Below, one piece after another: positions 20,940 to 28,387 of a DNA stretch of 64,000 nt. Position numbers and translations under genes: made by a program. Every line of letters starts with the position of its first letter. The first letter of the stretch is position 1. The notes under the pieces are model-generated. The model searched no databases, was not told the DNA's origin, and saw only the letters and a list, made by a program, of their open reading frames with translations. Source of the stretch: Cyclobacteriaceae bacterium (GTDB lineage Bacteria; Bacteroidota; Bacteroidia; Cytophagales; Cyclobacteriaceae); contig JAHBUB010000012.1 of NCBI GenBank assembly GCA_019638285.1, positions 1 to 64,000 on the forward strand. Direction: 5' to 3'.

Positions 20940-21653
20940 CTATGATTTTTGCTGCACTGACTGATTTTTTTTTATCTGAAGGCTCTCAAAAATCACAACA
21001 TTAATGAGAAGGAGGAGCATTCCGTAAAAGGTGTCTTCTATCGGTATGGTGCCCATACGAATGCCTATGTTCTCAGCATCATTATACCATACAATTGGAT
21101 TCTCTAATCCGGTTCCGGTTAGTATCCCATTCACCATAAAAAATGGAATAAGTATAAAAAGGAAAGTGGAATAAAACTTACCAAGATAAGATGGCTTTAA
21201 AACGAAGCGCAGGTAGAATAGAAAAATTGAACAAAGAAAAAAAGCAGAGCTGGTGTACCATTTTTCAAAATTGAGTCCGGCAATGACAAAAAGTAAAACC
21301 CCAAGGGTAAGTGTAATTGAAGGTGCGAAGCGTTCTACGTAATTCTTTTTTGAAAAGTACCCCACAGCTTCGTAGGTAAATACACAAGCATAGGGAATAC
21401 AGATAAAAAAAAGAATTTCTTCTATGGGTAGACTAAATACATAAATGCCTGTAAGGTATTCACGGTTGAACCCCCATACCCCCATGCGGGTAAACCATTC
21501 ATCCCATATCAAAAAGAAAATTGCAGGTAGTAGAATTGCTGGCCACAAGTATTTCCATTTTTTTGAAAAGTTCGCCTTGGGATGAAAACTAAAAATGAAC
21601 GGCAGCGAAATAGCGGTCAAGTCTACGATGAGATATAAATATTTTTGATTCAA
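20940..21653 (-). CDS. Lycopene beta-cyclase, fused CrtYc-CrtYd type
   Basis: A 237-residue integral membrane protein with about seven hydrophobic helices. It carries the PxE(E/D) motif of CrtYc/CrtYd-type cyclases twice, PIEE at 76-79 and PIED at 204-207, so both halves of the heterodimeric enzyme are fused in one chain. It converts lycopene to beta-carotene at the membrane. It is the last gene of the carotenoid operon. No ATG is usable: the TTG at 21653, four bases after the crtZ stop, is the probable start, which implies translational coupling to crtZ. Confidence 0.88.
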   Translation of the reverse strand: MNQKYLYLIVDLTAISLPFIFSFHPKANFSKKWKYLWPAILLPAIFFLIWDEWFTRMGVWGFNREYLTGIYVFSLPIEEILFFICIPYACVFTYEAVGYFSKKNYVERFAPSITLTLGVLLFVIAGLNFEKWYTSSAFFLCSIFLFYLRFVLKPSYLGKFYSTFLFILIPFFMVNGILTGTGLENPIVWYNDAENIGIRMGTIPIEDTFYGMLLLLINVVIFESLQIKKNQSVQQKS

Positions 21654-21656
21654 GTC

Positions 21657-22151
21657 TTATTGTGTCTCCTTTCGCTCTGTGCGAAGTTTAAAATCCTTAG
21701 ATTCATATTTCTTTGGTGCATATAGAAATCCAAAGGCTTCACAGCCTTCCTTACTGTGCTTGCTGTGGTGAATATAATGCGCATTGATCATGCGTTTTAA
21801 GTATTTTGTTTTTCTTTTTGGCCTCCACTTGATGCGTTGGTGTACAATGAAATCGTGAAATACCATGTAAAAGACACCATAACAGAGTATGCCCAAACCT
21901 ACAGCCAGCAAATAGGGATTGTATTTTACGATACTGGCATAATAGAAAAGACCAATCGAAGGAATACTAAAGACAACGGCAAACCAATCATTTTTTTCTA
22001 ATGAATGGTTGTGCACAGAGTGGTGTGATTTGTGCCAGATCCAAAGAAAGCCGTGCATGATGTATTTGTGTGTAAACCAAGCTACAAATTCCCAAAAGAG
22101 AAAAGTAGCAATTACAATGACGGCACAGATTAAAATGGTAATCCAATCCAT
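21657..22151 (-). CDS. crtZ: Beta-carotene hydroxylase CrtZ
   Basis: This 164-residue membrane di-iron hydroxylase adds 3-hydroxyl groups to the rings of beta-carotene, giving zeaxanthin. The histidine boxes are visible: HKYIMH (28-33), HKSHHSVH (40-47), HDFIVHQRI and HYIHHSKHS near the C-terminus. Hydrophobic helices lie at the N-terminus and in the middle. It starts 3 bases after the SRPBCC gene stop and ends 3 bases before the cyclase start, so the three are tightly coupled. No crtW ketolase gene is present, so zeaxanthin is the inferred product of this cluster. Confidence 0.94.
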   Translation of the reverse strand: MDWITILICAVIVIATFLFWEFVAWFTHKYIMHGFLWIWHKSHHSVHNHSLEKNDWFAVVFSIPSIGLFYYASIVKYNPYLLAVGLGILCYGVFYMVFHDFIVHQRIKWRPKRKTKYLKRMINAHYIHHSKHSKEGCEAFGFLYAPKKYESKDFKLRTERKETQ

Positions 22152-22154
22152 ATG

Positions 22155-22634
22155 TTATTGGGCGCTTAATTTGTTATTTATGTTACAAAAGTGAGATGCC
22201 AATGCACTGTACCGATAGTCAAAAATAGTATTAACTTGTCTGCCTACAAAAAGCCAATGTGCGAATCTACCTAAGAGGCCGAATGGAATTGCATAGTTAA
22301 CTTCATCGGTCATTTCCACACCCTCTTTCGTCATTTTGAAATGATGTTGATGATGCCATAATTTATAGGGACCAATGCGTTGCTCATCAATGAAATGCTG
22401 TAGCTCTTTTACTTGAGTTATTTCCGTTACCCAGTTGGTACGTATACCTGGTAAAATTTTGATTTTATAGGCAATGATTTGACCTGCGTATGTTTTGTCA
22501 CCACCGGATATATATTGAATGTCAAAACCCATATCTCGGGGAGTAATTTTGCTTAAATTTTTTGGTGAAGAGAAAAAAGACCATGCTTCCTCTAAGCCAA
22601 TGGGTAATACCTGCCTGCGTGTTAGATTATACAT
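22155..22634 (-). CDS. SRPBCC family protein of the carotenoid operon
   Basis: A 159-residue START/Bet v1-like protein: VLPIGLEEAWSFFSSPKNL at residues 8-26 is the typical opening of the SRPBCC fold, a hydrophobic ligand-binding cavity. The ATG at 22634 is preferred over a GTG two codons earlier. No catalytic function can be read from the sequence. Its position between photolyase and crtZ, with only 3 bases to crtZ, suggests a part in carotenoid handling or transfer, perhaps binding a hydrophobic intermediate, but this is inference from context. Similar proteins are sometimes named cell-division inhibitors without good reason. Confidence 0.85.
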   Translation of the reverse strand: MYNLTRRQVLPIGLEEAWSFFSSPKNLSKITPRDMGFDIQYISGGDKTYAGQIIAYKIKILPGIRTNWVTEITQVKELQHFIDEQRIGPYKLWHHQHHFKMTKEGVEMTDEVNYAIPFGLLGRFAHWLFVGRQVNTIFDYRYSALASHFCNINNKLSAQ

Positions 22635-22682
22635 TTTCACACCAATTTAAACACAAACAGGTGTGTATTGTTTTGGATTGAG

Positions 22683-23990
22683 TCAGTTATTTTGAAGTGC
22701 TCTTTTGTATGCACTAAGGACTCGTTTTCGGGCAAAAGCGTGATCTACAATCGGTTTTGGATATAGACCTGTTTTTAATTCAGGGATCCAATTTTTAATA
22801 TATGTCAACTCCGGATCGAATTTTTCGGTTTGCAGGTATGGATTAAATACCCTGAAGTAAGGAGCTGCATCACAGCCTGAACCCGCGGCCCATTGCCAGC
22901 CACCATTATTTGCAGCAAGATCAAAGTCAAGGAGTCTACGCGCAAAATAAGCTTCACCCCATCTCCAGTCGATGAGTAGATGCTTAACAAGAAAACTGGC
23001 CACAATCATCCGTACCCGATTGTGCATAAATCCGGTTGTGTTTAATTCACGCATACCTGCATCCACGATAGGGTATCCGGTGCGGCCCTTACACCACGAA
23101 TCAAACTCTGCGGGGTCATTCCTCCATTCAATTCTGTCATAGGCTGGTTTAAATGCCTGATTGACATTGGGGAAATGCCATAGAATCATATGATAAAAAT
23201 CTCGCCATATTAATTCATTGAGCCACATATCGTTTTTCTTCAATGCTTCTCCTACTAATTTTCTAATACCTACTGTGCCAAATCGCAGGTGTACACTTAG
23301 CCTTGTCGTTCCTGCTCTAGCAGGGTAGTCCCTGTCCAGATTGTAGTTTTGAATAATAGACGATTTGATAATGCGTTGTGGGAACTTAATATTTGAGGGC
23401 TGAAATCCAATTTTTTCTAACGTAGGTAATGGAAGGGTAGTCAGTTTAATAAAATTATTATAGTATTTATTAGTGGGATAAGCTTTATAATTATCTTGTG
23501 TCAGATGCGCTTTCCACTTTTTGCTATAGGGTGTAAAAACTGTGTACGGTTTGCCGTCATTTTTTATTATATCCCCCTTGTCAAAGATAACTTGATCTTT
23601 ATAGGTATTAAATTTCACTCCTTTTTCAAGAAGTATTTTTTCTACCGCTGTGTCTCTTTTTTTTGCGTACGGCTCGTAATCACTATTGGTATAGACTGCT
23701 TTGGGTGTAATTGACTTAAAGAATTTGATTGGAGAATCATGAACCACAAGAAGAGTACTTCCTATTTTCTCCAGTTCACTTTTTAATGCCAGTACCGTAA
23801 CATAAATAAAATTGACACGAGCATCATCCCTATCCTCTAATTCATCCAGAATTTCTTTATCAAAGATAAATACAGGTAATACTTGAGGGTTTTCTTTGAG
23901 CGCATGATACAAGCCGGAGTTGTCAGTCAGTCGCAAATCGCGTCTAAACCAGAAAAGAGTGGTCTCCTTTTTTATTAAGTCTGTATACAA
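22683..23990 (-). CDS. Deoxyribodipyrimidine photolyase / cryptochrome family
   Basis: A 435-residue flavoprotein that would repair UV-induced pyrimidine dimers with blue light. The N-terminal antenna domain starts TLFWFRRDLRLTDNSGL. The FAD-binding helical domain has WNELIWRDFYHMI, RTGYPIVDAGMREL and FMHNRVRMIVASFLVK, then WQWAAGSGCDAAPYFRVFNP, all typical of class I CPD photolyases; a (6-4) or signalling role cannot be excluded. There is no ATG near the conserved start; TTG at 23990 fits best. It sits inside the carotenoid operon, linking photorepair to light-induced pigment synthesis. Confidence 0.92.
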   Translation of the reverse strand: MYTDLIKKETTLFWFRRDLRLTDNSGLYHALKENPQVLPVFIFDKEILDELEDRDDARVNFIYVTVLALKSELEKIGSTLLVVHDSPIKFFKSITPKAVYTNSDYEPYAKKRDTAVEKILLEKGVKFNTYKDQVIFDKGDIIKNDGKPYTVFTPYSKKWKAHLTQDNYKAYPTNKYYNNFIKLTTLPLPTLEKIGFQPSNIKFPQRIIKSSIIQNYNLDRDYPARAGTTRLSVHLRFGTVGIRKLVGEALKKNDMWLNELIWRDFYHMILWHFPNVNQAFKPAYDRIEWRNDPAEFDSWCKGRTGYPIVDAGMRELNTTGFMHNRVRMIVASFLVKHLLIDWRWGEAYFARRLLDFDLAANNGGWQWAAGSGCDAAPYFRVFNPYLQTEKFDPELTYIKNWIPELKTGLYPKPIVDHAFARKRVLSAYKRALQNN

Positions 23991-24020: not shown

Positions 24021-24536
24021 TCAATGCTCTTTATTGTGTCTTGTGTATTCATTGACAATTAGATTCAGCCAGTAAGTATATAGATGTGGAGACTGAGACA
24101 ATTGAAGTTTTAGTTCATCCAGACTTACGTAGCTAAAGCCATCTAATTCGCTTCTATTGATGGTGGGCTCGCCATCAAACTGGCAGACATATACATGATC
24201 AAATTCATGTTCAATTAAATCATTTTCTAATTCAACTTTGTATTTGAATTTATAAAGGTATTTGGGTTGTATGTCAATGCCCAATTCTTCTTTCATTCTT
24301 CGCTTGGCCGCATCATCCGTATTTTCCCCCGGTTTCGGATGACTGCAACAGGCATTGGACCACAATCCTGCGCTATGATATTTCGATTTGGCTCTTTTTT
24401 GCAAAAGCATTTCTCCTTTTGAATTGAATACCAATACAGAGAAAGCACGATGCAATAACCCTTCGCGATGGGCTTCCATCTTTTCCATAGTCCCTATTGG
24501 GTCATCCTCCTCATTCACTAAAATTACGTGATCCAT
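24021..24536 (-). CDS. idi: Isopentenyl-diphosphate delta-isomerase, type I
   Basis: A 171-residue Nudix-fold enzyme that interconverts isopentenyl and dimethylallyl diphosphate, supplying precursors for carotenoids. Features include the N-terminal VILVNEEDDPIGTMEKMEAHREGLLHRAFSV stretch, the active-site cysteine in SNACCSHPKPGE, the Nudix-like RRMKEELGI and the EHEFDHVYV region with metal ligands. Length and motifs fit type I Idi. It lies 3 bases after crtB and 30 bases before the photolyase start in the same operon. A GGPP synthase gene (crtE) is not in the window. Confidence 0.95.
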   Translation of the reverse strand: MDHVILVNEEDDPIGTMEKMEAHREGLLHRAFSVLVFNSKGEMLLQKRAKSKYHSAGLWSNACCSHPKPGENTDDAAKRRMKEELGIDIQPKYLYKFKYKVELENDLIEHEFDHVYVCQFDGEPTINRSELDGFSYVSLDELKLQLSQSPHLYTYWLNLIVNEYTRHNKEH

Positions 24537-24539
24537 AGG

Positions 24540-25382
24540 TTAAATAAGATTGAACTGATGTTTAAGGTAAGAATAAAACAAAATAGAGAATTTATACCTG
24601 TTTGGAATACGAATTCTGTTTTCAAGAACATACTCAGATGGAGTATTCTTTATTTTGTTGAATAAGGCCATATAGTAAAGATAAGCCACGTGCACTCCGA
24701 GTTTTGAACTCCTCGGAAGCTGTTGTATCCCTTTATACCCTTCATTAAAATCTGCTGCTATACTATCTTCAATCTGTTTCTTGCTGTTATCGTTGAAATT
24801 ATCCAGGTCAACTTCGGGAAAATAGGATCGCCCCATTCCTATATAATCTGCATTGAGATCACGGAGAAAATTTATTTTTTGAAATGCTGAGCCCAGACGC
24901 ATTGCCATTGGCTTCAATTTATTATAAGAGGTTGCATCTCCGTTGCAAAATACCTTTAAGCACATGAGACCCACTACTTCTGCGGAACCCAATATATACT
25001 CTTCAAATGATTTCTGGTTGTGATTTTTTCCGTTGATATCCATTTCCATGCTGTGAAGAAACTGTTCGATCAGCTCGTGATCAATTTGGAATTGATTAAC
25101 TGTAAGTTGAAAACTTTGTAAAATAGGATTGAGACTTATCTTTTCATCGATGGCCTGATAAGTCTCTGTTCTGAATCTGTCTAGTAATGATTTTTTGTTA
25201 TACGGATGAAAAGTATCTACTATTTCATCGGCAAACCTTACAAACCCGTAAATAGCGTATATGGGATCTCTTAATCCTTTATGAAGACAGAGTATGCCTA
25301 AGGAAAAGGATGTGCTATAGGCTTTTGTAGTGAGCCTGGAGCACTTTATAGCATTTTTATCAAACAGTTCTTGTGGTGTCAT
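24540..25382 (-). CDS. crtB: Phytoene synthase CrtB
   Basis: This 280-residue prenyltransferase condenses two geranylgeranyl diphosphates to phytoene, the first committed carotenoid step. The first Asp-rich motif is in YGFVRFADEIVD (about residues 45-56) and the second in NFLRDLNADYIGMGRSYFP (about 171-189); AYSTSFSLG near residue 22 is the substrate-flap region. Squalene synthase family membership is certain; phytoene rather than squalene is inferred from adjacency to crtI, 24 bases upstream. Confidence 0.95.
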   Translation of the reverse strand: MTPQELFDKNAIKCSRLTTKAYSTSFSLGILCLHKGLRDPIYAIYGFVRFADEIVDTFHPYNKKSLLDRFRTETYQAIDEKISLNPILQSFQLTVNQFQIDHELIEQFLHSMEMDINGKNHNQKSFEEYILGSAEVVGLMCLKVFCNGDATSYNKLKPMAMRLGSAFQKINFLRDLNADYIGMGRSYFPEVDLDNFNDNSKKQIEDSIAADFNEGYKGIQQLPRSSKLGVHVAYLYYMALFNKIKNTPSEYVLENRIRIPNRYKFSILFYSYLKHQFNLI

Positions 25383-25406: not shown

Positions 25407-26888
25407 TTAACTGGCTTTTCTTCTTTGTCTTTTTATAAGTTCTTGTGCCACTACCTGTCCTGATATAAGTGAGGGAGGTACCCCCGGCCCCGGAACAGTT
25501 AACTGACCTGTATAAAACAGATTGGAAACCTTTTTGTTTACGATAGATGGTTTTAAGTTGGCAGTTTGCCCAATGGTGTTGGCCAAGCCGTAGGCGTTTC
25601 CTTTAAAGGAGTTATAATTTTCAATAAAATCGCGATGTGCATAACTCCTTTTATATATGATATGTGGAGTAATTGACTGTCCAGTTAGTTTCTCTATCCT
25701 GTTGATAACAAGCTTAAAATATTTTTCCCTTGTGTGCTCTTCATCTTTAAGGTCCGAGGCCACAGGGATTAATATAAATAGGTTTTCGTGCCCATGGGGT
25801 GCTACTGTGGGATCTGTTTTAGAGGGACAGCATACATAAAATAGAGGATTGGTGGGCCATGAAGGATTTTGATATATTTCTTTGGTATGAAGAGCGAAAT
25901 CTTCATCGAAAAAGAGATTATGATGAAGAAGATTGTCTAATTTTTTGTTTATACCTAAGTAGAAAATCAAACTGGAGGGAGAAAGTTTACGTGTTTCCCA
26001 GTAGTTTTCACTATACCTTCTGAATTTTTTTGGTAACAAATGTTGTTCTACATGATGGTAATCGGCACCCGCCACAACATGATCAATAGCTATAAGACTT
26101 CCATTCACATTAATGGACTCAACATTTGAACCCTTCACATTGAGTGACTGCACGTTACTATCGAATTTAAACTTTACCCCTTTTTCTTCAGCTAACTTTA
26201 CCATACCCTCAATAATCTTGTACATCCCGCCTTTTGGATACCAGGTACCAAGTACCATGTCCGCATAATTCATAAGGCTATAAAGAGCGGGTGTATTTGA
26301 GGGAGCGGCACCAAGAAAAAGAACTGGAAATTCAAGCAATTGAACTAACCTAGGGGACTTGAAGTGTTTTTGTATATACTTACTAATGGATTCAAAAACG
26401 TGAAGTTTAAAAACTCCTTTAATTAATTTGGGGTCAATCAATTCCAATAATGACAAGCCCGGTTTGTAGACCAAGTCTTCAATCCCTACTTTATATTTGT
26501 AAGCTGCTTCTTCAAGAAAAATTTTAAGTTGGTCGCTACTTCCTTTCTCTTCTCTTTCAAACAATGCGTATAATTCTTCCAACGTGGATGGGATATCCCA
26601 AATCTCGCCTTGAGGTAAGAAAACACGGTAGGAGGGGCTAAGTCTTTCTAGTTGATAGTAATCGGAAACAGATTTCCCAAAGCGGTTGAAGTATTTTTCA
26701 AATACATTGGGCATCCAATACCAACTGGGCCCCATATCAAATAAGAAGCCATTGGATTCAAACTTCCTTGCACGACCTCCAGCACTATCGTTCTTTTCGT
26801 AAACAGTTACATCAAAACCTTCTGCTGCCAGCGTTGTTGCTGCTGATATTCCAGCAAAACCTGAACCTATGACAGCAATTTTTTTCAT
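25407..26888 (-). CDS. crtI: Phytoene desaturase CrtI
   Basis: A 493-residue FAD-dependent membrane-associated desaturase that converts phytoene to lycopene in four steps. The N-terminal dinucleotide fold is AVIGSGFAGISAATTLAAEG, followed by EKNDSAGGRARKFESNGFLFDMGPSWYWMP. The C-terminal signature is NLFYTGQLTVPGPGVPPSLISGQVVAQEL (about residues 455-485), typical of bacterial CrtI. It is the second gene of the operon, 24 bases after the ECF sigma factor gene and 24 before crtB. Confidence 0.95.
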   Translation of the reverse strand: MKKIAVIGSGFAGISAATTLAAEGFDVTVYEKNDSAGGRARKFESNGFLFDMGPSWYWMPNVFEKYFNRFGKSVSDYYQLERLSPSYRVFLPQGEIWDIPSTLEELYALFEREEKGSSDQLKIFLEEAAYKYKVGIEDLVYKPGLSLLELIDPKLIKGVFKLHVFESISKYIQKHFKSPRLVQLLEFPVLFLGAAPSNTPALYSLMNYADMVLGTWYPKGGMYKIIEGMVKLAEEKGVKFKFDSNVQSLNVKGSNVESINVNGSLIAIDHVVAGADYHHVEQHLLPKKFRRYSENYWETRKLSPSSLIFYLGINKKLDNLLHHNLFFDEDFALHTKEIYQNPSWPTNPLFYVCCPSKTDPTVAPHGHENLFILIPVASDLKDEEHTREKYFKLVINRIEKLTGQSITPHIIYKRSYAHRDFIENYNSFKGNAYGLANTIGQTANLKPSIVNKKVSNLFYTGQLTVPGPGVPPSLISGQVVAQELIKRQRRKAS

Positions 26889-26912: not shown

Positions 26913-27416
26913 TTACTTATACCCTACCAATTTCTTTTGAATTTCTTTACGAGCATGAAATATCCTGTTTTTAACAGTCCCAATGGGGATGTTCAAATGC
27001 TCAGCGATTTCATGGTATTTATACCCTGTACTGTACATTTTAAATGGGATTTGTAGTTCTTCTTTTACTTCATTTATATTCTTCCATATCTCTTTGAATT
27101 CTAACGATTTTTCAGGCCGATTAAAAGTATGGTTATCTGCTACATTCAGATAATAAAGTTCTTTTGTATTATCGGTTGATGTCTTGGCTATTTTGGCTTT
27201 ACGATAGTTGTTAATAAATGTGTTTCTCATAATAGTGAACAGCCAGCCTTTTAGATTGGTATCCGCTTTGAATTTGTCCCTATAGGTAAGGGCCCTTAGC
27301 ATGGTGTCTTGTACCAAATCCTGTGATTCTTCTGCATTTCGAGTAAATCGATAGGTAAATCCCTTCAAGGTATCGTTAAGGGCAGAAATTTGGGTTGAAA
27401 ATTCTGTCGAAGTCAT
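26913..27416 (-). CDS. ECF-type RNA polymerase sigma factor, first gene of carotenoid operon
   Basis: A 167-residue sigma-70 family factor. Region 2 is at about residues 15-80 (FTYRFTRNAEESQDLVQDTMLRALTYRDKF and LKGWLFTIMRNTFINNYRK). Region 4 is at about 105-160 (PFKMYSTGYKYHEIAEHLNIPIGTVKNRIFHARKEIQKKL), so it is complete. No anti-sigma factor gene is adjacent. It heads the carotenoid operon and is transcribed from the intergenic region that holds the two inverted repeats. It may amplify the light response by driving this or other promoters; its regulon cannot be read here. Confidence 0.93.
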   Translation of the reverse strand: MTSTEFSTQISALNDTLKGFTYRFTRNAEESQDLVQDTMLRALTYRDKFKADTNLKGWLFTIMRNTFINNYRKAKIAKTSTDNTKELYYLNVADNHTFNRPEKSLEFKEIWKNINEVKEELQIPFKMYSTGYKYHEIAEHLNIPIGTVKNRIFHARKEIQKKLVGYK

Positions 27417-27417
27417 A

Positions 27418-27512
27418 TTGTTTAATTATTATGCAACAAAATTAAACAAAATAAATTATCACACAATAATTTTATATGATTTGTTTAATTATATATAAAA
27501 AATATTAAACAA
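27418..27512. promoter_or_regulatory. Two identical inverted repeats, candidate CarH-type operator
   Basis: TTGTTTAAT-N14-ATTAAACAA occurs twice, at 27418-27449 and 27481-27512. Arms and spacer length are identical and the spacer sequences differ. The copies start 63 bases apart, close to six helical turns. The proximal copy overlaps the predicted -7 element of the operon promoter, so a bound repressor should block transcription. The MerR/B12-type regulator gene lies immediately upstream and is the obvious candidate for the binding protein. Repeats are seen; binding is inferred. Confidence 0.65.
27437..27466 (-). promoter_or_regulatory. Predicted promoter of the sigma/carotenoid operon
   Basis: On the minus strand, TTG (27466-27464), a 19-base spacer and TAATTTTG (27444-27437) match the Bacteroidota housekeeping pattern TTG-N17-23-TAnnTTTG. 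The expected start of transcription lies a few bases downstream, leaving a short leader before the ATG at 27416. The -7 element lies inside the proximal inverted repeat. Confidence 0.6.
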
Positions 27513-27517
27513 AAATA

Positions 27518-28387
27518 TTACACCAATACCTGTCTTAATACAGGTATACTATTGAAATGCTTGAGATTTTCATGTTTTGAGGTGATCAATTCTGGTAGTT
27601 TACCAGAGGCAAGAATGGTAGCGGTTGGAAAATCTTTAATCAATCTTGTAAGGTATTCAAGCGCTGCTTGGGGTCTTTGAGGGGCAGTGAGAGAGGTAAT
27701 GATAAATTGCGGCTGATGTATTTTACATACTTTTTTCAGATCATCGTAAGGCAAATGCTGCCCCAGATAGTATACTTTAAAACCCCAGTTCCTGACGAGA
27801 TAATGGTAAAAAAGAAGCCCTATTTCGTGCAATTCATTTTCAGGAAGGAAGAGCACCACTTTAGTAGCGTCTTTCTTTGGGAAAGGTAGGGAATCAATCG
27901 CCACAATGATCTTTTGTCGAATCAGGTTAGAAATAAAGTGTTCTTGTGCAGGAGTAATATTTCCTGTTTGCCACAAGACCCCGATTTTTTCTAGAAATGG
28001 GTAAACGATTTCTACTATTGTTTTCTCGAAACCGAACTTCATGATGAGGTGAGAAAGAAGCTTTTCAAACTGCTCTTCTTCCATATCGATCATTTCGACT
28101 ACAAGCTGATCAATAAATAGATTGGGATCCTGATGGTTAGAGGTGAGTTCTACAATCTTTGTATTGATCTCTTCCTCCGTCATTCCGGCAATTCTTGAAA
28201 TCTTTACCCCTTCACTATTGAGTAATGATACATTGATAATCTTTTTTAGATCATTATCGGAATAGTATCGAATATTGGTAGGCGTTCTTTTAGGAATAAT
28301 GATACGATGCCTTTTTTCCCATATCCTAATGGTATGGGCTTTGATGCCCGAAAGCGTTTCAAGTTCTTTAATGGAATAGCTTCCCAT
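27518..28387 (-). CDS. MerR-family regulator with B12-binding domain (CarH-like light sensor)
   Basis: This 289-residue protein combines a MerR winged helix-turn-helix (1-72, YSIKELETLSGIKAHTIRIWEKRH) with a four-helix cap and a Rossmann-type cobalamin domain (about 85-289). The cap carries the Wx9EH signature (Trp139, Glu149, His150). The cobalamin domain has ExHxxG (Glu185, His187, Gly190), the position of the lower cobalt ligand. In the known family members CarH and LitR, adenosylcobalamin makes the protein a DNA-binding tetramer in the dark and light disassembles it. All key residues are kept, so B12-dependent light sensing is likely. The gene lies 101 bases upstream of the carotenoid operon in the same orientation. 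Confidence 0.9.
   Translation of the reverse strand: MGSYSIKELETLSGIKAHTIRIWEKRHRIIIPKRTPTNIRYYSDNDLKKIINVSLLNSEGVKISRIAGMTEEEINTKIVELTSNHQDPNLFIDQLVVEMIDMEEEQFEKLLSHLIMKFGFEKTIVEIVYPFLEKIGVLWQTGNITPAQEHFISNLIRQKIIVAIDSLPFPKKDATKVVLFLPENELHEIGLLFYHYLVRNWGFKVYYLGQHLPYDDLKKVCKIHQPQFIITSLTAPQRPQAALEYLTRLIKDFPTATILASGKLPELITSKHENLKHFNSIPVLRQVLV

Follow-up and report, generated by a model that had tools for sequence, protein, structure and literature searches.

Paired inverted repeats between a CarH-like MerR/B12 regulator gene and its sigma factor and carotenoid genes, putative operators of a light-related regulon in Cyclobacteriaceae and related orders

Analysis of the promoter region of a carotenoid gene cluster in a Cyclobacteriaceae bacterium revealed two exact copies of a 32-bp inverted repeat. 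Very probably, they serve the neighboring MerR/B12 regulator as operators and identify a light-related regulon that extends to related orders. The window, i.e., the whole stretch of DNA analyzed, comprises 64,000 nucleotides (contig JAHBUB010000012.1, positions 1 to 64,000 of the forward strand). As the original prediction had it, the two copies are identical and carry N14 spacers, TTGTTTAAT-N14-ATTAAACAA, at 27418-27449 and 27481-27512, 63 bp from start to start. Both are contained in the 101-bp gap between the regulator gene and the sigma factor gene. The features of the locus are as follows.

27518 to 28387, minus strand: MerR/B12-domain regulator of 289 aa, CarH-like, likely binder of both sites (Pfam MerR_1 and B12-binding_2; Thermus CarH is the best match in the PDB)
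27481 to 27512, no strand assigned: distal (upstream) putative operator, TTGTTTAAT-N14-ATTAAACAA (exact match; similar sites in relatives)
27464 to 27466, minus strand: TTG of the -33 type, putative sigma/crt promoter (from the sequence; 19 nt ahead of the -7 box)
27447 to 27454, minus strand: TTATTTTG, -7 box with one mismatch at offset 58, overlapping the left arm (place usual in relatives)
27437 to 27444, minus strand: TAATTTTG, -7 type box within the proximal operator (from the sequence; offset 68 from the start of the distal site)
27418 to 27449, no strand assigned: proximal putative operator, TTGTTTAAT-N14-ATTAAACAA (exact match; similar sites in relatives)
26913 to 27416, minus strand: ECF sigma factor, which heads the apparent operon (Pfam Sigma70_r2 and r4_2)
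25407 to 26888, minus strand: crtI-type desaturase (NCBIfam CrtID, 746.7 bits, above cut-off)
24540 to 25382, minus strand: phytoene synthase crtB (Pfam SQS_PSY and position; NCBIfam CrtB models below cut-off)
24021 to 24536, minus strand: isopentenyl-diphosphate isomerase idi (NCBIfam PRK03759 above cut-off)
22683 to 23990, minus strand: DNA photolyase phr (Pfam FAD_binding_7 and DNA_photolyase)
22155 to 22640, minus strand: 161-aa protein without Pfam or NCBIfam match, which by eye we take to be SRPBCC-like
21657 to 22151, minus strand: 164-aa protein without Pfam or NCBIfam match, by eye presumably CrtZ hydroxylase-like
20940 to 21653, minus strand: lycopene cyclase (Pfam Lycopene_cyc; NCBIfam CarR_dom_SF)

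The gene order on the minus strand is regulator, two-site gap, sigma factor, crtI, crtB, idi, phr, two short genes, and lycopene cyclase. Because the listed reading frames from the sigma factor through the lycopene cyclase are separated by 3 to 42 bp, these eight sigma-crt-phr genes appear to form a single operon. The window contains no 32-bp site preceding the regulator's own gene and no Rfam match at the gathering threshold. Next to the distal site, the final part of the regulator gene contains an 11-bp inverted repeat (27526-27547) that is unrelated to the 32-bp repeats. The genome also encodes a cobalamin adenosyltransferase (PF01923). A search for rhodopsin found no match in this genome, but none in any control genome either, so that a rhodopsin gene may have been missed.

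The 32-bp pair is alone of its kind in its own genome. The two sites are the sole exact matches in 3.98 Mb, and a reversed-pattern control gave 0. Dinucleotide shuffling of the window produced no exact match in 100 rounds; when up to 3 mismatches were allowed, shuffled sequences gave a mean of 0.22 matches, and the real window held just the two 32-bp sites. When arms of 8 bases were used, the genome revealed 2 exact sites (the window pair), 0 with one mismatch, and 89 with up to 3 mismatches versus 119 for the control. As this count falls below that of the control, the weaker sites are indistinguishable from chance, and no further regulon targets are claimed in this genome.

The distribution of the motif was compared with that of the regulator gene. 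Exact sites with 8-base arms occurred in 100 of 196 family genomes (reversed control, 4 of 196), and the regulator gene occurred in 170 of them. The motif was found in 99/170 genomes with the regulator versus 1/26 without it, 6 of these 26 having been identified by elimination (Fisher p = 5e-8; this p-value and that for the genus ignore relatedness, which inflates them). The sole genome with the motif and without the regulator, G244, is 81% complete; among the 177 family genomes that are at least 90% complete, the numbers were 93/161 and 0/16. At genus level, with up to one mismatch, the motif was present in 20/23 genomes with the regulator versus 3/13 without (p = 2e-4), and in 18 of the 20 a match lay on the contig of the regulator; the reversed control gave 6/23 and 8/13. 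The exact 8-base-arm site was absent from 71 of the 170 regulator-bearing family genomes, which speaks against the assignment, although degenerate sites are common. Beyond the family, 70 of 148 genomes sampled from the order had the motif (control, 3), as did 37 of 296 sampled from the phylum (control, 6). Split by eye, the 37 include 29 of 61 genomes from further orders of the class and 1 of the 223 genomes that do not belong to the class, with 223 obtained by difference. At one locus (L044, genome G076), the 3-kb stretch holds sigma-crtI and the operator but no regulator, which is encoded elsewhere on that contig at a distance of about 6 kb.

Conservation was analyzed in 111 distinct regulator-to-sigma gaps, which remained from 183 loci after removal of loci lacking either gene and of repeated gaps. 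Scoring of the two best sites per gap used a fixed inner spacing of 16; as sites were picked by likeness to the motif, conservation values per gap and position are inflated. With this bias, the best site matched at least 14 of 16 arm bases in 104 of the 111 gaps. The inner spacing was scanned from 6 to 28 in the last 300 bp of each gap. Sites with at least 15 arm bases were found in 75/111 gaps at spacing 16, in 10 at spacing 17, and in 0 to 3 at each other spacing; with at least 14 arm bases, the numbers were 104/111, 22, and 0 to 16. The latter include 11 to 16 gaps at inner spacings of 6 to 9, which, like the 22 at spacing 17, count against the operator reading. In Markov-resampled gaps, spacing 16 yielded an average over 20 rounds of 0 at level 15 and 0.5 at level 14. 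A search of 74 family genomes with spacers of 6 to 26 gave a spacer of exactly 16 in 55 of 75 among the matches listed (counted by eye); the reversed control gave 21 sites over all spacers in the same genomes.

The distance between the two best sites falls into classes. The sites were 62 to 65 bp apart in 51/111 gaps and 43 to 45 bp apart in 21/111; the remaining 39 gaps showed other distances, many with a single convincing site. Where both sites had at least 13 arm bases (73 gaps), 42 lay at 62 to 64 and 14 at 43 to 44. Fulvivirga, Pontibacter, Rufibacter, and Sabulibacter are among the named loci of the 63-bp class; in the 44-bp class, Algoriphagus accounts for 9 of the 16 named loci. The predicted position of both sites on the same face of the helix holds in the window, where 63 bp corresponds to 6.0 turns at 10.5 bp. 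As a general rule, 10.5-bp phasing is ruled out by the 43- to 45-bp class (4.1 to 4.3 turns).

Comparison of the arms with known operators revealed the half-site. The arms contain TGTnnA and TnnACA, whose fixed letters are all among the best-conserved arm positions; in the 63-bp class (48 sites each, proximal and distal, themselves picked by motif likeness), they were kept at 0.90 to 1.00. At the nn positions, TT and AA prevail; conservation there was lowest at 0.62 (63-bp class, position 6 of the proximal site) and 0.53 (44-bp class, position 28 of the distal site). The inner bases gave no support to a third half-site midway in the operator, being less conserved than the arms; the exceptions are the -7 element (44-bp class) and A-rich or T-rich stretches. 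When TnnACA pairs were counted across the 111 gaps irrespective of the full motif, there were 173 inverted pairs at offset 24 versus 0.9 expected, 22 at offset 25 versus 0.6 expected, and 10 direct pairs at 11 bp versus 1.8 expected. In place of the three or four 11-bp direct repeats of tandem CarH operators, inverted pairs dominate in these gaps. Further enrichment near offsets 39 and 42 to 44 and at everted offset 20 results from the two-site spacing. Extra half-sites at +4 and +22 of the proximal sites account for no more than a part of the direct pairs at 21 bp (44 versus 2.7 expected). The published CarH half-site is likewise TnnACA and occurs in tandem 11-bp direct repeats, according to excerpts of PMC9304148. 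The original statement that the motif is unlike known CarH operators thus applies to orientation and spacing; the half-site is identical. The geometry of the putative operators, inverted TnnACA half-sites at a fixed 24-bp offset, is new.

Promoters of Bacteroidota follow the pattern TTG-N19-TAnnTTTG. The proximal copy covers a -7 box (TAATTTTG, 27444-27437 on the minus strand) 19 bases from a TTG (27466-27464), in agreement with the original prediction, and the sigma factor ATG (27416) begins one base past the proximal site. The predicted carotenoid promoter does have carotenoid genes downstream; the promoter itself is that of the ECF sigma factor gene heading them. A sigma-70 promoter scan gave matches at chance level. 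The offset of the -7 box from the start of the distal site was tallied in gaps in which both sites had at least 12 arm bases. It was 58 to 60 in 15/15 gaps of the 44-bp class and 57 to 59 in 30/48 gaps of the 63-bp class, to which the window belongs. In these 30 gaps the box lies 9 to 11 bp further upstream than in the window and overlaps the left arm; at this usual place, the window has TTATTTTG alone. The perfect -7 box of the window is displaced by 10 bp, and a shift of about 21 bp was observed in five other gaps. Of the 28 gaps of the 63-bp class with a perfect promoter match, 21 have the box at 57 to 59 and 5 at 79 to 80; the remaining 2, those of the window and locus L004, have it at 68. 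In the 7 gaps with a moved promoter, the operators are still 63 to 64 bp apart. That the promoter moves while the operators stay in place favors, in few and related sequences, a coupling of the two operators to each other over anchoring of each to the promoter.

Genes downstream of the motif were examined at 81 motif loci (30, 26, and 25), a non-random draw. In 67/81, the motif precedes sigma/crt, photolyase-cluster, rhodopsin, pterin-synthase, fasciclin, or regulator genes. The downstream gene was a homologue of the window's sigma factor at 30 loci, 6-pyruvoyl tetrahydropterin synthase (PTPS) at 10, a fasciclin protein at 9, crtI beside the regulator at 6, rhodopsin at 4, an SRPBCC-like gene with a photolyase about 1.3 kb further on at 3, and a regulator homologue at 3. 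With L198, where sites lie ahead of both sigma factor and regulator and which was tallied under sigma, four loci carry the motif before a regulator homologue (L197, L198, L201, and L229). Photolyase, crtB, and flavin reductase were found at one locus each, and a weak photolyase-like match at 2. Other or unassigned genes followed at 11 loci, three of them with DUF4397-domain genes behind the operator (L186, L187, and L192). Pfam analysis confirmed the tested representatives, namely rhodopsin, fasciclin, PTPS, photolyase, and a beta-carotene dioxygenase (L234). The repeat was thus found in relatives before sigma, crt, and photolyase genes, where the original prediction had placed it. At L234 (748-2463), the rhodopsin and beta-carotene dioxygenase genes diverge from a region that holds the operator and a second site, whose starts are 34 bp apart. 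A divergent L,D-transpeptidase-like gene was observed at 8 of the 10 pterin synthase operator loci (L042, L043, L046, L047, L048, L053, L055, L061, L062, and L210). A second site of at least 14/16 within 25 to 160 bp occurred at 1 of 42 loci with other targets (L234), which suggests that bridging of operators is not a general requirement.

The regulator has the domain order of its proposed class, an N-terminal MerR HTH followed by C-terminal cobalamin-binding domains, according to both Pfam and fold. MerR_1 and B12-binding_2 scored above cut-off, and B12-binding scored 21.2 bits, below its cut-off of 32.1. The best PDB match by sequence and by fold is Thermus CarH. The structure model (pLDDT 88.1) gave a TM score of about 0.6 to the query for the top full-length CarH chains, with a different placement of domains, and of about 0.85 to the target at 2.7 A for the cobalamin domain alone. 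Comparison with 153 relatives, the distinct homologues from the fetched loci, revealed conserved ligand positions. Wx9EH is present as W139, E149, and H150 (kept in 153, 153, and 152 of 153), and ExHxxG as E185, H187, and G190 (E in 153, H in 152, and G in 88). The lower axial histidine of Thermus CarH, His177, lies within ExHxxG. The rest of the cobalamin motif is SxL...GG; the window reads SLT and SG in this region, and G262 is kept in 151/153. The position of Thermus His132 is occupied by Gln (residue 140), in an alignment that is ungapped there, and the relatives have Q in 115, L in 24, and H in 3. The NCBIfam CarH equivalog NF052513 is the best NCBIfam match, with 103.1 bits, below the 400-bit cut-off. 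As the curated cut-off and His132 both fail, the regulator was not filed as CarH proper; it is CarH-like by its predicted function. The earlier interpretation is in part borne out: co-occurrence, the TnnACA half-site, and the motif before regulator homologues support the assignment to a MerR/B12 regulator, and His132 and the NCBIfam cut-off speak against a regulator that works like CarH.

In the LitR-LitS system of Streptomyces, a MerR/B12 regulator is likewise encoded next to an ECF sigma factor gene and crt/phr genes. The regulator of the window shares with CarH of Thermus thermophilus and Bacillus megaterium the MerR HTH and B12 domains, Wx9EH, ExHxxG, fold, TnnACA, and carotenoid targets. 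It differs from these systems in the missing His132, the score far below the NCBIfam cut-off, and two separated operators at the sigma/crt promoter, with the inverted 24-bp offset in place of tandem 11-bp direct repeats nnnnTnnACAn. Overlap of the operator with promoter elements is common to CarH systems (PMC9304148, in excerpt) and the window. The class II LitR proteins PplR1/PmlR2 of Pseudomonas recognize T(G/A)TACA-N12-TGTA(C/T)A, with two sites at P6650, one over the -35 region and one past the start, and their targets are light inducible (excerpts of PMC9758184). Two sites per promoter and the TGT and ACA letters of the half-sites are common to that system and the window, whereas the distance between the starts of the half-site hexamers is 18 bp there and 24 bp here, and the core is TGTACA there and TAAACA here. 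In Myxococcus xanthus, where carotenoid genes and the ECF sigma factor CarQ are involved (excerpts of PMC9304148 and PMC8156234), the regulator is also associated with carotenoid genes and an ECF sigma factor, as in the window. The CarA/CarH operator of about 55 bp was first described there as two inverted repeats and is now read as 11-bp direct repeats; the inverted repeats of that operator are degenerate in relatives (PMC9304148, in excerpt), whereas in the gaps analyzed here it is the inverted form that is conserved.

These comparisons suggest a CarH-like dark repressor that acts with a different operator geometry on the two 32-bp sites and has cobalamin and light as signals, a reading that we consider likely. 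From the sequence we infer regulator binding, repression, and the adenosylcobalamin and light signals. The protein encoded at 27518-28387 would bind both inverted repeats as operators, each arm offering a TnnACA half-site, inverted and at the fixed 24-bp offset. With cobalamin bound, the regulator would in the dark occupy the site upstream of the -33 element as well as the one that covers the -7 element and the start, and exclude RNA polymerase from the sigma-crtI-crtB-idi-phr genes. Light would break the cobalt-carbon bond and release the regulator, and the operon would be made. A wider proposal is more tentative, and we hold it to be possible rather than probable: a CarH-like branch in the phylum may use symmetric TnnACA pairs at the 24-bp offset, with a single tetramer bridging operators at 63 or 44 bp at the sigma/crt promoter, lack the His132 switch, and govern carotenoid, photolyase, pterin, and rhodopsin genes as their master light switch. 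Within this proposal, light release would need another chemistry, since the His132 switch is missing.

The alternatives concern the signal and the identity of the binder. The sites may bind the regulator while the protein is CarA-like and blind to light, acting constitutively or on another signal (cobalamin status or a partner protein), with any light effect being indirect; we consider this rather unlikely. Such a protein would fit Gln or Leu at the His132 position in 139/153 relatives and the SxL...GG part that is not intact in the window. Excerpts of PMC10442372 report that His132 of Thermus CarH is needed for light-driven disassembly and that without it most of the tetramer persists in light, and note an earlier study to the contrary. 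The class II LitR PmlR2 has an internal B12 domain, yet receives its signal from a LOV partner (PMC9758184, in excerpt). The near-invariant Wx9EH and ExH ligand positions and the light-related targets of the motif argue against blindness to light, as does the report, in the excerpts of PMC8156234, that a missing signature motif largely explains the B12 independence of CarA and that both motifs define CarH homologues.

It is improbable that the repeats are recognized by another transcription factor or by the ECF sigma factor itself and that the regulator is a neighbor by coincidence. Since the sites reach into the promoter, a part of the motif might help in recognizing it; the motif, however, tracks the regulator gene across genomes, its half-site is the CarH half-site, and it is found at loci where the gene behind it is not a sigma factor gene, e.g., before crtI by the regulator (6) and before regulator homologues (4). 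We know of no sigma factor recognition element that is a dyad this wide. An AT-rich coincidence or a structural element of the regulator gene, such as a terminator or cruciform, is hardly credible. The intergenic DNA is AT-rich and the unrelated 11-bp inverted repeat lies nearby, but the result of 0/100 shuffles, the spacer of 16 in 55/75 among the matches listed, and arms better kept than most inner bases all contradict it. The CarH-like dark repressor remains the preferred reading.

Searches of the open-access PMC literature found no paper on CarH in Bacteroidota, and among the matches listed, none was recognized as describing this operator or regulon. Excerpts of PMC11855829 describe a MerR-family gene in a Nonlabens crt cluster and mention no operator. 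In one Chryseobacterium, carotenoids are light induced and no car or lit operon was found, according to excerpts of PMC7064467, so regulators of this kind are wanted. If the proposed role is correct, one short DNA word would map the light response in a large group of bacteria, including the timing at which rhodopsin and retinal synthesis are switched on. The DNA-binding domain of CarH would then work in symmetric as well as tandem geometry, and a sharp question would arise as to how light releases a CarH-like protein without His132.
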